Shown here one piece after another: positions 1,561 through 64,000 of a DNA stretch of 64,000 bases; position 1 is the first letter of the stretch; every line of letters starts with the position of its first letter. The notes beneath the pieces were generated by a model. The model saw only the letters and a program-made list of their open reading frames with translations, was not told the origin of the DNA and did not search any database. The stretch comes from Shinisaurus crocodilurus (Eukaryota > Chordata > Lepidosauria > Squamata > Shinisauridae). A program made the translations under genes and the position numbers. Location: positions 142,478,564-142,542,563 of the forward strand of contig CM037880.1 in assembly GCA_021292165.1 (NCBI GenBank), in the 5' to 3' direction.

Positions 1561-2186
1561 TATAAATGCATTCTGTGCATTCCCAAGATGAACAGACCTC
1601 CCTCTTATGCATGAGCATTGCTGTTTTGGCTACATAAGAATCAGCACTCTCACCCCCAAACATCGCTAATACAGGGAACAAAGAACTATGTATGGGTTCA
1701 TCTACACAGATCTCTATAAGCCTCTGTAGCTGGGCCCTTTTCAGGGCCGGATTAAGAGCATTATGGGCCTGGTGCTGAGGATTTTGGTGGGCCTTTTTAT
1801 GGAAATAAATAAAATGAAGACGCAATTTTATATTAAAACAAATTAAATATTTTAATTACCATTAAAGTGCCAAAACAGAAACATATTGAAAATATTTCTT
1901 TTTTTGTAAACAATAAGCTTGTTAACTCAAGTAAAACCTGATGGAAGTGGGCAGTGTCCGTGAAAGCTTATGTCAGAATGAATGTGTTGGTCTTTAGGGT
2001 ACCACAAGACTCTCTTGTTGTTCTTGCTGCAATAGACTAACACAGCCCACCCCTTCGGGAATTATGCAGACTGTTAGGCAACAATGTACACGAACCGAGC
2101 TCTTACTCAGCTGCCCCCCCCCCCCCACGGGGTGTATGGAGAGAATGCTATTGACCTGCCTTACAGGGTTGATGTAAGGATTACAA

Positions 2187-2275
2187 CAGGGGTCCTCAAA
2201 CTTTTTAAACAGGGGGCCAGTTCATTGCCTCTCAGACTGTTGGGGGACCGGACTATAGTTTAAAAAAAAAAAAGA
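2187..2275 (+). mobile_element. hAT terminal fragment
   Basis: This starts CAGGGGTCCTCAAAC and continues with a GGGGGCCAG block and a GGACCGGACTATAG segment, typical of an old vertebrate hAT end. No matching right end is found, so it is a fragment inside the larger hAT. Confidence 0.5.
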
Positions 2276-2447
2276 ACGAATGGATCAAGTAAAAAAAAAA
2301 AGGACCTGGGTCATTTTTTTTCACTTGATAGGGGTGAATTTTTTTTTCTTAAATGGAAAGTTATTATAAATTAATTATAATGTTAACAAGTGATTAAATG
2401 GAGGATGGAAAGTTATTTTGATGGCAAAAGTGGGTAGAAATTAATGA

Positions 2448-2773
2448 TTTATTTATTTATTTATTCCATTTATACCCCGCTCTTCAGCCAGAAAAGGCTC
2501 TCAGAGCGGTTTACACAGATTACCGGTAATAATAAGACATTCCCTACCCTCAGGCTCACAATCTAAAAGACTGAATGCCAAACATTATATTGGTGCCTGA
2601 GTTTGGCATTCTTCCTCCTCCCTCCCAATCCCTTTTCCTTTTGTGTCATGTCTTTTAGATTGTGAGCCTGAGGGCAGGGAATGTCTTATTATTAATCTGT
2701 GTAAGCCGCTCTGAGAGCCTTTTCTGGCTGAAGAGCGGGGTATAAATGCAATAAATAAATAAATAAATAAATA
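2448..2773. repeat. Long inverted repeat (about 124-bp arms) of a SINE/LINE tail
   Basis: Arm 2448-2571 and arm 2650-2773 are reverse complements with few mismatches, separated by about 78 bp. Each arm has an (AATA)n tail, a GGGTATAAATG-like 3' end and a GAGAGCC core. The flanks share a direct repeat of about 47 bp (GATTAAATGGAGGATGGA, at about 2393 and 2776). It would form a long hairpin if transcribed. Confidence 0.8.
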
Positions 2774-2973
2774 ATGATTAAATGGAGGATGGAATTTTAT
2801 TTCGATGGCAAAAGTGGGTTTAAAAAATAAGAATGTACTACCTTTTTTGCTGTCTAAAATTGAAATACATTATAAAAGGCTACCTACAAATTATAAGCGT
2901 GTTTTGCTTTTGTCTGGCTGCTCTGTGTGTGTGAATGCTTTGTGTGGGGTAAACTGAAATACATTATAAAAGA

Positions 2974-3160
2974 GTCCCTGACTCTCAGCCTAACCTACCT
3001 CACAGGGTTGTTGTGAGGATAAAATGGAGGAGGAGGAGGAGGAGGAGGAGGAGGAGGAGGAGGAGGAGGAGGAGGAGGACTATGTAAGTCGCCTTGGGTT
3101 CCTTGCAGGAAAAAAGGTGGGGTATAAATATAACAAATAAAATAAATAAATAAATAAAAT
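2974..3160 (+). mobile_element. tRNA-derived SINE, 5' truncated, with expanded (GGA)n
   Basis: It starts at CCTGACTCTCAGCC and has the CACAGGGTTGTTGTGAGG body. A (GGA)n expansion at 3026-3079 replaces the usual short AGGAGG tract. It ends in the CCTTGCAGGAAAAAAGGTGG tail. It lies inside the hAT and so moved with it or inserted later. Confidence 0.85.
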
Positions 3161-3559
3161 GTGAAAAGGCAGCAGCGCCTGTATGGGAAACAGGTGGGCA
3201 GGCAGGAAAGAGGGCACTCTGAGGGAAACTGAGAAAGATGCCAGGAAGGAGGGAGAGTACTTTGAAGGAAGCTGAGGCAGAAATGGAAGGAGAAAGGGAA
3301 TAGAAGGGGGGGGGACCCACTTTGTGCCTGCCTGCCTTTCTTTTTTGCTTGTTTCCCTCGGACTTTGAGGGAAACTGTATGCAAACTTTGAGGGAAACTG
3401 AGGCAGGAAGGAAGGTGCTTTGGGGGAAGCTGAAACAGGAGAAAGAGAACGGAAGTGTCTGCGTGTGAGGGGGGGCATTTTGTGCCAGCCTTGCTTTCCT
3501 TTTTGCCTCGGTTTCCCTCAGGGAAACTGGACAAACATTGAGGGAAACTGAGGCAAAAA

Positions 3560-4285
3560 GAGAGGGAGACGTAAATGGATAAACTTGGAGGGTGGCGGCG
3601 AGAAAGGCTCCGGGGCGAGGCGGCTCTGGGGAGCATGCTCAGGTCCCCCCCCCCGCGTCCAAGCGGAGGAAGAGGAGGAGGAGGAGGGCGTGGCGCGCGC
3701 ACCTCGCGGCAGCCCCACCCGGCGAGGAGGAGGAGGACGACGCCCCCAGGCATGCCGGGGGCTTCGCGCGTGCCCACCCACCCGGTTCTCCCCCCACCCG
3801 CTCACCTTGAAGGCGACGTCGTAGAACTCTCCGCTGTTGCTGAGCGAGGGTCTGCTGGGCAGCGCCACCCCGTTGGCGGCGCAGCAGGAGGAGGACGCCG
3901 CCGCCGCCGCCGCCACCGCCGCTCCGGCTGCCCCCTTGGCCCGGGCTGCGCCCCGGCCGCTGGCATCGGCGCGTTGCTGGGCGGCGGGCAGGGCGGACGA
4001 GGGCGCCGAGGTGCCGCCCTTGCTCTTGGGGCTCTTCTTGCGGGACATGCTGGCGCGGGCTTGGGCTTGGCTCAGTGCGCCCTCCCGGCCGGCTGCGAGC
4101 AGCAGCAGCAGCAGCAGGTGGGCAGCCCCAGTGCCGGCGGCATCCCTCCGCCCCTGCCCTCTCTCCGCCTGCCGGTCCCACTCTCGGCCGCCGCGTGACT
4201 CTCATTTCCCCCGGCGCCGCGCGTCCCTATTGGTGGGCCTATTTTGGGGGAGGGGCCTGGAGCTGCCGCTCCAATAGCCCCTATG
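3560..4285 (-). promoter_or_regulatory. CpG island, captured RAB26 promoter/5' region
   Basis: This block is strongly GC-rich and dense in CpG, in sharp contrast to the AT-rich flanks. It covers the RAB26 exon, its 5' untranslated side (4049 to about 4200) and the start of its first intron. A CAG repeat (4099-4116) and Ala-coding GCC repeats are present. CpG islands of this kind normally act as promoters; transcription here would run leftwards, the same direction as NFATC1. Activity is not shown. Confidence 0.6.
3806..4048 (-). pseudogene. RAB26: RAB26 first coding exon, isolated copy within a hAT transposon
   Basis: RAB26 is a small Rab GTPase of secretory and synaptic vesicles. On the minus strand an ATG at 4048 opens 81 uninterrupted codons beginning MSRKKSPKSKGG and ending RPSLSNSGEFYDVAFK. 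They are followed exactly by a GTGAG donor (3801-3805). The start and the FYDVAFK end match vertebrate RAB26 exon 1, which stops just before the GTPase P-loop exon. The middle is a long alanine-rich tract (about residues 36-51), making it longer than the human exon. No P-loop (GDSGVGKT) exon or any other Rab exon is seen between 3800 and 1. The exon sits wholly inside the transposon at 1742-4299, so I read it as a captured fragment without gene function of its own. Alternatively it is the true first exon with a very long intron, but the transposon boundaries argue against that. Confidence 0.85.
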
Positions 4286-4307
4286 TTAATCCGGCCCTGG
4301 CCCTTTT

Positions 4308-18225: not shown

Positions 18226-18782
18226 TTGTTAATCTGGTCCTGTCCTGCCTAAAAACAGTTAAAATGTGATAGCTATCATTCTTTTTTAAAGGCTGCTTTG
18301 TTTAAAAGCTTTGATTAAACATTGTGCATTCTGATTTTTTGTTGTTGCTTGGACTAAAGTAGAATCCCCCCCCCCCACTACACCTTTTGTAAAAACACAG
18401 CATTTAACAAATGATCATCTAGCTTCTGTCTACACACATTTCTGAAATACTTTCATTCCAATCTGTCTTGGAAGGAAGCTTTAAGATGAGTGGAAACCTG
18501 GCATTTAACTCAACAGGGAAGAAGTGGTTTCCACTTCACAAAGAAAGGGGTGGGAGAGTTATAAAAAGAACATCAAATGTTACAGCTAAGTATGGAGATG
18601 GAAGATAAGAAAAGACTAGAGAGAGGCAAAACTCCTGCCGATACTTGCCCTTGGGTAGAGGCTGGGCCAAACCGTTACTTGTCTTTCTCTTATCAAAACA
18701 TGTAAATATTTTTAATAGGCAGATGGATGTTTTAAATCATTCTTTTAAAAACATGGACTACCTTGACTTTTTCTTAAACTTA

Positions 18783-32402: not shown

Positions 32403-32601
32403 GAGAGCCAGTGTGGCATAATGGTTAGCGTTTTGGACTGGGGCTCGGGAGATCCGGGTTCTAGTTCCCACTCACCCATGAGTGACTTTGGGCCAGTCAC
32501 TTACTCTCAGCCGGGTTGTTGTGAGGATAAAATGGAGAGGAGGAGAATCATGTAAGCCGCCTTGGGTTCCTTGCAGAAAAAAAGGCAGAATATAAATATA
32601 A
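32403..32601 (+). mobile_element. tRNA-derived SINE interrupted at its tail by a Helitron-like element
   Basis: The head GAGAGCCAGTGTGGCATAAT, a GGTTCTAGTTCC B box and the 3' part CCGCCTTGGGTTCCTTGC are present. The A-rich tail is cut at 32601 by the Helitron-like element and resumes as AAAAAATAAAA at 33581. Confidence 0.85.
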
Positions 32602-33579
32602 TCTACTATATAAATGTGAATGTTTGTACGTGTGTACGTACGTACGTACGTACGTACGTATGTCCGATCGGCTCGTGTGCGTCACATTGGCTCCTACACG
32701 GTTGGATGGATGCGCCCCGAACTTGGCACGCATACTCCCCATGACCCAAGGACAAAGACTGGTGGGTTCAAATCTCCGAAAAACCCTTGCCGCACCTGTA
32801 CGGCCCAAAATAGATGAGAGCCAATAGCATCACTTGGAATGTTTGCAGGGGCCATTCAGGAGCGGTTATGCAAATCGGTCCAACGGCATTTAGAATGTTG
32901 GTATGCACTGCCGCAGGGGCCCAATCAGAGGCGGATATGCAAATCTCTCCTACGTCCAAACAGAATGTTCATATGAACTGCAGCCGGGGCCTACACGGGG
33001 GGGGGGGGATTCCAAACAAACAGTGCCTATAGGAAAATGACGACCCGTGCAACGCCATTGTGTAGTCGGGGGGGGGGCAGGGATTTCATTGTGTGGTCCT
33101 GGGGGGGGCAGTAGGGAATTCATTGTTGTGTGGTCCCGGGGGGGGGAGCAGGGATTTCATTGTGTGGTCCCGGCGGGGGGGGGGGGACACACACAGGGAT
33201 TTCATTGCATAGTCCCGGGGGGGGGGGAAAGCAGGGATTTCATTGTGTGGTCTGGGGACGACGACAGGGAAAACATTGTTGCATAGTCCTGGGTGGGAAG
33301 GAAGCAGAGCTTTCATTGTGTAGTACTGGGGGATGGATGGACAGGGAATTCTTCAAAGTGTAGTCCCAGGGAAGCTGGGATGTCATTGTGCAGTCCCGGG
33401 GGAGCTGGCAGTCCCGGGGGAGCTGGGATTTCATTGTGTAATCCTGGGGGAGCTGGTAATCCCGGGGGAGCTGGGATTCCAAGGGATTCCAAACAGCGGA
33501 CAGCTACCTTAAGGAATTTCGAACAAATAGTGCGTATAGGAAAATGATGACCTGTGCAACGCCAGGTAAAAAAAGCTAG
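32602..33579 (+). mobile_element. Non-autonomous Helitron-like element with internal repeats
   Basis: It begins TCTACTATATAAATG after an A and ends in AAAAAAAGCTAG before a T. The TC start, CTAG end and A|T insertion all fit Helitrons. It carries an (ACGT)n tract at 32636-32661, GGCCAATCAG/ATGCAAAT repeat units (octamers at 32868 and 32937) related to those at 17529-18225, and a G-rich minisatellite. A 3'-terminal segment (AGGAAAATGACGACCCGTGC) is present twice, at about 33031 and 33537. Confidence 0.65.
33054..33480 (+). repeat. G-rich minisatellite within the Helitron-like element
   Basis: Irregular units of about 25-50 bp carry the core CAGGGATTTCATTGTGTGGT followed by a CCCGGGGGG-like run. 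Later units shift to a GTCCCGGGGGAGCTGG form. Overlapping frames read Gly-rich repeats and are not genes. Confidence 0.85.
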
Positions 33580-38964: not shown

Positions 38965-39075
38965 CAGCCTTCCCCAACCTGGTGCCCTCCAGATGTTGTG
39001 AACTTCAACTTTCATCAGCCTTTGCAATCATGCTTAATGGTCACAAACCCTGGGAGTTGTAGTTGGGGAAGGCTG
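38965..39075. mobile_element. hAT MITE, family A, exact 8-bp duplication
   Basis: It starts CAGCCTTCCCCAACCTGG and ends GTTGGGGAAGGCTG. CCATACAA is present on both sides (38957-38964, 39076-39083). Confidence 0.88.
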
Positions 39076-42082: not shown

Positions 42083-42763
42083 CATCGTCCAGGTATAACT
42101 GGTCCAATTCCTCAGGTTCTCGCTTGATCGTTACAGGAATAGGGGCCAAATTATGATTATTGTCCTCATGCAACTCGGGCAACGACAGTGGCTGATCTGC
42201 TGGAGATTCATTTCTTTGAACATTCGGCAGTTGCTGCTGACCCATTATGGATGAGTGAGTTGGACTGCAGGACTGCAAATAGGTTGACTCTTGGGTTACA
42301 GATGGAACTGGAGAGGAGGGACTGTTGGGATAGAGTGTTTGTTGGTAACCAAGGGAACAGCTACTGCTCAGATGTTGACTCACCTGCGGCTGCAGCATGA
42401 TGTGAGATGACTGATCTGGAGAGCTTGGGTGCACAACTATAGACCTTGGCACTTCCTGTATGGTGGGGACACCTCCAACCGTCTGCTGAAGTCCTAGATG
42501 GTTGTGGCCTGGGTTGGTGATGCACTTGTAAGCAGGAGAGGAAAGATCGTGCAGCTTAGGACTTGAGCTGGGAGATGATGACATCACAGTGTTTCTCTGC
42601 TGACAGGAAGTGAAGCCAGCCACAAGGCACGAGCCAGGATCAGGAGGCATCATGATCTGCTGGCTGTAGTATGGTTTGGAGAGAGGACTTAATCCTTGGT
42701 TCCTTGGTCCACAGGTTTGAGCAGGCTCATAGTCGTCAGTGGGTTCTGTTTTTATAATTGGAA
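42083..42763 (-). CDS. NFATC1: NFATC1 long-isoform C-terminal exon (transactivation tail)
   Basis: This 681-bp exon encodes the C-terminal activation region found only in long NFATC1 isoforms. The acceptor is CTTTCAACAG; the exon completes the Val codon and begins PIIKTEPTDDYEP. It continues through a Ser/Pro/Gln-rich low-complexity region and ends with PVTIKREPEELDQLYLDD, followed by a GTAAGT donor at 42077-42082. About 226 residues are encoded with no stop. Two sumoylation consensus motifs, IKTE near the start and IKRE near the end, sit where NFATc1 is known to be sumoylated. The tail motifs GLSPL, YYSQQ, MPPDP and LAPIPVT are characteristic of NFATC1 and separate it from NFATC2-4. The donor implies one more small exon, which in mammals encodes about 16 residues. 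I did not find it in the window. Confidence 0.96.
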
Positions 42764-43410
42764 CTGTTGAAAGAAAAAGAAAGTGCTTTGAATAAACATG
42801 GAGTTGCACATTGGTATGATCAAGTTGGCTTGTGGCTAGGATACCCTTTGCAAAAACAAACAACGTCTTGAATAAGACTCTGTGTGTCCTTTGCCTGGTT
42901 CTCCCACCCCATAAAAAATATGAATGAGTCATCCGCACAAGAAAGTCACAGCTGGTTCTAATATTGAAAAAGACTATTTTCTTTGGACTCTCCTCCAGCT
43001 CTAATGTGCTATAAAAATCTATTTGCAAATAGCTGCGCTGCAGTAGAAGCTCTGGACCCAAGGGTTCTATGGATTTGTAGTAATCAAAGGATTTTTTTTA
43101 ACTTGGATGTACTACCGCATGTCTAGTGCTACTGATGGCCCATTTGATAGATGTCTGCACAATGGACAAATTCAAGCATGGGGATTCAAAAAAGGAGCTT
43201 TCAGAGTTCACCAAAATAAAACTCCAGGGAGAACGGCAAGTTTATGAAAAATTATGCATTTCATCATAAGACTTTTTTCCTGAATAAGCTAAAACCTAAC
43301 TTTTCTTCTTTTAAAAAACAAAGACAGTGGAACAGTGTTTTCATATCATTTTTGTAGTCCATACTAGAGCACATGTGAAAATTCAGTAAACAATATTTGT
43401 CACAGCTTAC

Positions 43411-43980: not shown

Positions 43981-44445
43981 GGGCCGGTTCATACGACCCA
44001 GGCGGCGAGCGGGGGAGGCACCATGGGGGCGTCTGCGGGGTCTGGCGGGGCACCGCAGATGACTTGCGCCCCGCACGCGTGGGCGGACCCCGGTGGAGCT
44101 GGCAGTCCCTGCACTGCAGTGTGGGCCTCCCGGTGCTAGGGGGTGGCAGCTCGGGATGCCCAGAGGGGCCGTTTGGCCCTACAGGCCGCAGCGGCCGCAG
44201 CTCTGGCCACTCTGGGCTGCCACCTCTGTGCGGCCATGGGAGGCCCCCCCGGGATGGCTGCCCGCTGTTTGCATGGCAGGGTGGCCACACACGGTAGGGG
44301 CTTACCCCTCTATCGCCCATGGTCACTTTGCGTGCTTCCCGCATGTGGCCATCCCACGGGGGTGCCCCCGGCCAGCGTTCGCACGACACAGGAACCGCGG
44401 GGACCTCTGCTCCCCCGCAGTTCCCTGTGTCATGTGAACCGGCCC
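43981..44445. mobile_element. GC-rich Harbinger-like MITE in the NFATC1 intron
   Basis: Inverted ends GGGCCGGTTCATACGAC and GTCATGTGAACCGGCCC are flanked by TTA on both sides (43978-43980, 44446-44448). The 465-bp interior is CpG-rich, which produces several overlapping meaningless long frames. Confidence 0.85.
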
Positions 44446-61129: not shown

Positions 61130-61262
61130 CATTAGCAGGAAGATAGGTGAAAAGCTGGTACTGGCTTCTCTTTCTCTTTCCATTGCAGACATAGAAATTA
61201 ACTTGGGCAGGACTTGTAATTCTCTGATTGCGGAACGGTGGTATCTCAATCACCAATGAAGT
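61130..61262 (-). CDS. NFATC1: NFATC1 coding exon: end of the IPT domain and basic motif
   Basis: The exon is preceded by a pyrimidine-rich TTTTCTTTTAG acceptor and encodes 44 residues plus one base. Segments visible are [31 protein letters not shown] and FTYLPAN. The first and last parts are the final strands of the NFAT Rel-homology/IPT fold. The KRKR cluster corresponds to a nuclear localisation motif of NFATc proteins. The last base, G of the AATG|GTAACA donor, begins the Val codon completed by the exon at 42763. Length and phase match the vertebrate gene. A Gln replaces the Arg I would expect after SQYQ, which looks like ordinary divergence. If the donor is not used, the frame continues into the short-isoform tail described separately. 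Confidence 0.95.
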
Positions 61263-62702: not shown

Positions 62703-63757
62703 GCTCTGTAAGATAAAAATTGCAGGCTGGCTTCCTTGCAATATAAAAACAACAAAAATGCAAAAAACCTTATTACCGGTTTTAAAAAATAAAAATCTGT
62801 TGTTTACTCTCTTGTTTAAAAAGACAAAATGTCTTCCAGGAGATGTTAGTATTCACTACAGGACAGCCTAGCACTGTGCATGTTCACACATGTATGCATA
62901 ATGTATGATTACTCAATGCCTGATCACTTAATGACTCACAACTGAATGAACAGGCCTCAGTAAAAAGGGCAGAGCAATCCTAACTCCCTCTGATGGCAGT
63001 CCAAGAGGGGTTAGGATGGGGTGGAGGTCCCACTCCACTGGCAGACAGGAGCTTTACTGGCAGAAGGGCATGACTGCCCCAGAGGCTCCAATAATGCCTG
63101 TGGAAAGCTCCATAGCTGTAAATCTACAGCCGACGAAGTTCTTTCCAGTGCTAGACCTCAAAACTGGGTGTTTCAGGGGCAGCCTTGGATCTGGTGGATC
63201 CAAGGTCCTGCCCATTCCTCCATGAGGCCCCAGGATTGGGCCCCTTGCCAACTCCAGCCCTCAGGCTGGCATAGGCATCCCCCCCAACCATTTTAACCAA
63301 TGAAAGGGAAAATAGAAAGAAAAACAACAATGCCAGCAACAACAAATAAGGTAAATCTGACCCAGCCACCACCAGCCATCCTTGCACGCATAAGCTGGCA
63401 TGGCTTTGGAAGTGGCAGATGATCCGCCACTTCGCTCCCCCACAACCCGAGTTAGAATTGCTCTGTTAAAAATGTTTGGCAGCAATTCTGTTTACAGCAA
63501 TGGCTTATGTTTAGCTTTCCTATGAGACAAATATAATGAAATGAGCAAAAAAAGATAGAACCACTGTTACTGAAAACAGTGTTTAGGAGGGAATCAGCTT
63601 ATCTGAAAAAGGGTTTGGTGGGGGCGATTGATCCAGCTTTTACACATATACAAGTCTGTCATCACTTGATATTTTAGTAACTGAATGATAAAGATGCATA
63701 TATGAATGCATCCACAGAAAAATGAAGGTATTTCTCAAAGGGGCGGGGGATACTTAC
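61263..63757 (-). other. NFATC1: NFATC1 intron between the 56-bp and 133-bp exons
   Basis: A 2.5-kb intron with consensus ends. It contains an (ATC)n tract at 62661-62702 and AT-rich sequence. Nothing else in it is recognisable. Confidence 0.85.
62661..62702. repeat. (ATC)n microsatellite
   Basis: About 14 units in the NFATC1 intron between the two short exons. Confidence 0.95.
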
Positions 63758-63813
63758 TGGCTTACACAATTCTTTGTCTGTTTTGGCTTCCATTTCCCAC
63801 ACGTGATGACCAT
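63758..63813 (-). CDS. NFATC1: NFATC1 internal coding exon (IPT part of the Rel-homology region)
   Basis: NFATC1 is a calcineurin-activated transcription factor that binds GGAAA sites, usually with AP-1, and acts in lymphocytes, osteoclasts and heart-valve endocardium. On the minus strand a T-rich tract ending in TAG precedes the exon, and the exon is followed by a consensus GTAAGT donor (63752-63757). The 56 bases read, after a split Asp codon, as GHHVWEMEAKTDKELCKP. This matches the C-terminal IPT/TIG half of the NFAT Rel-homology region. It starts with two bases of the Asp codon and ends on a complete codon, so it joins in frame to the exon at 61262. Earlier exons, carrying the regulatory region and the DNA-binding half, lie beyond the right edge. 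The paralogues NFATC2-4 are similar here; the C1 call rests mainly on the tail exon. Confidence 0.93.
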
Positions 63814-64000
63814 CTAAAAAACAAGAACAAGAAAAAAAAAGTCTAATTCTACTCCTTTATTTATCCCTTCATAGGTGTCAGAAATGGGATGGGCGATCTC
63901 CATTTTTGAGATGCTCCCCTTAATCTCTCTCACAGACATTATATGAATTTGAAAAAGACTCTCGGCTTCTTTCACACTTTTTCAACCTGCTCGTCTCCAG

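Follow-up and report, generated by a model that had tools for sequence, protein, structure and literature searches.

We found a hAT-type element of 2558 bp (1742..4299) that carries the first coding exon of RAB26 between perfect terminal inverted repeats (TIRs), bounded by an exact target site duplication (TSD), in the window, the whole 64-kb stretch of DNA analyzed here. The later exons of RAB26 are absent from the window, where the coding sequence to the right of the element belongs to NFATC1. The best reading of this arrangement, with a probability of about 0.86, is that a non-autonomous hAT-type transposon captured the 5' end of a squamate RAB26 gene, the composite lying beside or inside NFATC1.

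Ends, target site and interior of the element

The left TIR, CAGGGCCGGATTAA (1742-1755, plus strand), and the right TIR, TTAATCCGGCCCTG (4286-4299, minus strand), are complementary at 14 of 14 positions. An exact 8-bp direct repeat, GCCCTTTT, bounds the element at 1734-1741 on the left and 4300-4307 on the right. Both features, the 14-bp perfect TIRs and the exact duplication, had been proposed in an earlier note on this DNA and are present as described there. The octamer has no further plus-strand match in the 64-kb window, while its reverse complement occurs twice (21370 and 62963). Pairs of this kind were sought by a scan for inverted arms 100 to 20000 bases apart, made of at least 3 different letters and flanked on the outside by an exact direct repeat of 8 bp. 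With 12-bp arms, 1742-4299 is the sole pair in the 64-kb window and none was obtained in 60 Markov-generated sequences of equal length. With 10-bp arms, a second pair appears in the window (38965-39075), against an average of 0.03 in the Markov-generated sequences. The element ends have no other full pair within the 64-kb window; one lone TIR-like match at 18229, with 2 mismatches and without a partner, was taken as chance.

The hAT definition in PMC3517528 comprises an 8-bp TSD, TIRs of 5 to 27 bp and a total length under 4 kb. The element agrees with it in its exact 8-bp TSD, its 14-bp perfect TIRs and its length of 2558 bp. Pfam found no transposase domain in any of the six frames of the element, the rows for Myc_N, Ribosomal_60s and DUF1180 being below their curated cut-offs, and therefore the element is regarded as non-autonomous; a non-autonomous hAT copy need not encode transposase. 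The TSD consensus of Ac-type elements is nTnnnnAn, from which GCCCTTTT departs. Its centre, CT, also mismatches the nnnTAnnn consensus of the Buster branch of hAT (PMC3517528), a comparison of one site with a family consensus and thus weak evidence.

Nested repeats occupy the left two thirds of the element. One end of a second element, starting with CAGGGGTCCTCAAACT, is found on the plus strand (2187..2270, right limit approximate); we presume that it belongs to a CAGGG-type family, and no matching other end was found in the 64-kb window with up to 1 mismatch. It is followed by a palindromic repeat (2440..2775), whose outer 83-nt arms are 95% complementary, and by a plus-strand copy of a dispersed repeat (2973..3164), which we take to be a SINE and which recurs in partial form near 1156, 12209, 26770, 32483 and 52720. 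A run of ACGT/CGTA repeats at about 32600-32700, where CpG reaches a further local maximum of 26 per 400 bp, adjoins one copy of this dispersed repeat. The nested repeats may have been part of a captured RAB26 intron 1 or may have inserted afterwards; in the former case the captured block would exceed 650 bp. To their right, a GA-rich segment (3216-3565) is duplicated internally over about 180-200 bp, with copies 69% alike, around GGGAAACTGAGGCA motifs. Rfam at the gathering threshold and a tRNA scan gave no match.

The RAB26 exon and its CpG-rich block

Coding exon 1 of RAB26 lies on the minus strand (3806..4048). The open reading frame from 4048 reads MSRKKSPKSKGG...SLSNSGEFYDVAFK, has 81 open codons, finishes in phase 0 with ...EFYDVAFK and is followed by a canonical GT splice donor at 3805-3804 (AAG/GTGAGC), as read from the sequence. 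Residues 1-82 were searched against about 5.77 billion proteins, which yielded 122 matches with E no greater than 1. Elgaria multicarinata webbii RAB26 ranks first (E 2.8e-19, 72% identity over 100% of the 82-residue query) and suggests an anguimorph lizard as the source of the DNA; it is followed by RAB26 of snakes and other squamates; among the best 120 of the 122 matches the identity over the whole exon never exceeds 72%. In an alignment that took in 9 of these proteins, the exon and Elgaria RAB26 share 67 identities, with 8 mismatches and 15 gap columns. Identity is complete over the last 25 residues, the differences being mainly in the alanine/glycine-rich middle, and the frame is kept. 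The intact first coding exon claimed in the earlier note was therefore borne out by its 81 codons, its donor and its best match. Conserved ends and an open frame form the pattern of a constrained ortholog, which leaves two possibilities, a recent capture or constraint on the copy itself.

When seven RAB26 proteins were compared with the window by tblastn (E up to 10), all seven found exon 1 and every other row had E >1; thus no later RAB26 exon was detected in the 64-kb window, including the 3.8 kb downstream of the exon. Residues 78-176, which cover the exon end and the intron read-through, had no homolog among 373 candidates (E up to 0.1). The exon had no match to solved structures up to E 10, and Pfam detected no domain in its open reading frame. 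A retrocopy of RAB26 was considered and rejected, as the retained intron and upstream DNA indicate that the copy was not made through RNA.

The exon is part of a CpG-rich block, on the same strand, that holds the RAB26 5' flank, exon 1 and the start of intron 1 (3581..4230, approximate). The block has a GC content of 0.75 and a CpG observed/expected ratio of 0.84, and no 400-base step elsewhere in the window has as many CpG as this part of it (51). The window as a whole has a GC content of 0.424, in line with the contrast between a GC-rich insert and AT-rich flanks described in the earlier note. The inner limits of 3560-4285 proposed there are approximate by GC content in 60-base steps, which is 0.52 from 3542, 0.75 from 3602, 0.67 from 4202 and 0.53 from 4262.

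Upstream of the start codon, the 5' flank (4049..4233, minus strand) presumably comprises the promoter and 5'UTR. Relative to the ATG, it has a single GC box at -105 and a single CCAAT at -185, and TATAAA was not found in 4049..4233. The CCAAT sits at the edge of the block and so may belong to the element. The CpG block may still be able to start transcription.

It is generally known that GC-rich first exons are hard to assemble, and an assembly join error might have put RAB26 exon 1 at this position. Matching TIRs and a TSD outside the block are not expected from such an error, which we regard as extremely improbable.

NFATC1 surroundings and the origin of the composite

Three exons of NFATC1 were recognized to the right of the element, all on the same strand as the RAB26 exon. 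The first is a long coding exon (42083..42764, minus strand, upstream limit 42764 approximate) with a donor at 42082-42081. It matches 62 proteins (E up to 0.001), among which the gene named specifically is NFATC1 (for instance P0124, E 7.7e-128), in a search whose length range excluded full-length NFATC1. The second (61131..61259, minus strand) encodes part of the Rel-homology dimerization region (Pfam E 1.7e-8) and matches solved structures of NFATC2, NFATC4 and NFAT5. The third (63749..63856, minus strand) is a match of 36 amino acids, 66.7% identical to P0123 (E 9.4e-11). The Pfam scan to the right of the element covered the three minus-strand frames of 4300-64000, with stops read as residues, and included a DUF3278 row below its cut-off. 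The segment 42042-43061, which comprises the long exon and its upstream read-through, is 96% alike in protein record P0121, a likeness that suggests a close relative in the databases.

The 64-kb window did not yield the final NFATC1 exon, which forms the tail of P0125, and because of this we infer the intronic position of the element: it lies most likely in the long last intron of NFATC1, or otherwise beyond the gene.

This setting bears on whether the exon might be at its native locus. In humans, NFATC1 maps to chromosome 18q, and RAB26 maps to 16p, next to PKD1 and TRAF7. A native exon 1 could have been moved beside NFATC1 by a rearrangement in this lineage, with the rest of the gene to the left of the window and the hAT ends merely bracketing it. 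The exon is intact with conserved ends, which is also what would be expected of an exon still in native use, and the window ends only 3.8 kb downstream of it. However, the second exon is absent from these 3.8 kb, the exon block is closely bounded by exact TIRs and a TSD, which point to a single transposition unit, and the surroundings are those of NFATC1 instead of the usual PKD1 and TRAF7. A native locus is thus disfavored by the NFATC1 setting and appears very unlikely. Capture is favored over it because NFATC1 is not known to be a neighbor of RAB26.

Capture of RAB26 by the element, as proposed in the earlier note, therefore stands as the best reading and is strengthened by the NFATC1 surroundings, while the parental gene and the mobility of the composite stay at the level of inference: a parental RAB26 would persist elsewhere in the genome, and hAT transposase supplied in trans would have moved the composite. 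At the DNA level, the hAT-type element would have copied the RAB26 5' flank, the first coding exon and the start of intron 1, probably through a template switch while a break inside the element was being repaired or replicated. Thereafter the composite would have come to lie in or by NFATC1, likely in its last intron and in the same transcriptional direction.

Two routes of capture are described by Tan et al. 2021 (PMC8277862). In the first, a gap in a resident TIR element is filled, with a strong bias to nearby parents; in the second, fork switching is followed by transposition, giving multicopy captures from distant sources that tend to be GC-rich. Single-copy animal Pack-TIRs show no GC preference in the same source, and most animal Pack-TIRs are near the parent, 160 of 281 within 15 kb (PMC8277862). 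This near-parent bias runs opposite to the distant source deduced here and counts against our preferred reading. The GC-rich, probably inter-chromosomal source fits the fork-switching route, and the single observed copy fits gap filling.

It is possible, at somewhat less than even odds, that a break in an older hAT element at NFATC1 was filled by template switching from RAB26, in which case the composite never jumped. Such a capture in place is a sub-case of capture, and its likelihood overlaps that given for the main reading. It would follow the main route for single-copy animal Pack-TIRs (PMC8277862), but the captured pieces in that paper are short, with a median of 224 bp, and lie mostly close to their parent, whereas here the piece is about 650 bp and GC-rich. 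The source was, judging by the human positions, probably on another chromosome, which also speaks against capture in place; these points are not decisive.

Known relatives and the possible transcript

Host sequence, the RAB26 exon, lies between paired TIRs, as in the elements named Pack-TIRs. hAT captures had been described in the earlier note as known in plants; animal cases are also known, since Tan et al. 2021 report 370 animal Pack-TIRs, of which 208 are hAT, and reptile cases are represented by 38 Pack-TIRs in the American alligator (PMC8277862). Like those hAT elements, the one described here has host gene sequence between TIR ends with a TSD. Exonic captures make up 13.4% of the animal Pack-TIRs, and the captured pieces have a median of 224 bp (PMC8277862), against a larger block of about 650 bp in the RAB26 element. 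That paper also gives Pack-hAT-N8_XT of the western clawed frog, a hAT element that also holds a piece from the 5' end of a gene, in this case 291 bp of the CAPSL 5'UTR, and is present in three copies with distinct TSDs (PMC8277862). What sets the RAB26 element apart from the animal Pack-TIRs is that it includes a dense CpG island and a 5' flank followed by a complete first coding exon, from start codon to donor. It is a further example of the known hAT Pack-TIR type and stands out by its CpG island and by the intact state of its first exon.

Among the matches listed in literature searches limited to openly licensed papers, RAB26 was absent. A search for hAT capture in squamates, over titles and the start of abstracts of openly licensed papers, showed no similar case among the matches listed. 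Helitrons of vesper bats have captured a promoter and first exon, likewise within a vertebrate mobile element; Helitrons are rolling-circle elements and are not known to have TIRs or TSDs of this kind.

A transcript started in the CpG block would carry RAB26 exon 1 and its canonical donor, which could be spliced to the next acceptor downstream, presumably that of the final exon of NFATC1. As the donor of RAB26 exon 1 is in phase 0 and that of the 42-kb NFATC1 exon in phase 1 (phase from P0125), the join would be out of frame. Such a transcript would give a short RAB26 N-terminal peptide and not a fusion protein.

A unit in which a full first exon with start codon and donor is preceded by its 5' flank has what new transcripts need wherever it lands. 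It offers a clean case in which to ask if a CpG island remains unmethylated once it has been captured and removed from its native locus. In the more far-reaching scenario, an active multicopy family scatters an unmethylated CpG-island promoter with first exon and donor, and NFATC1 gains an internal start in its last intron; we consider this improbable. Squamates have active DNA transposons, and the element raises the question of whether their genomes hold more such captures.

One other GC-rich element was observed in the window at 43981-44445, with inverted ends GGGCCGGTTCA and TGAACCGGCCC, TTA on both sides and up to 33 CpG per 400 bp. By the type of its TSD we take it to be of the PIF/Harbinger type, with an interior that we regard as unusually CpG-rich.
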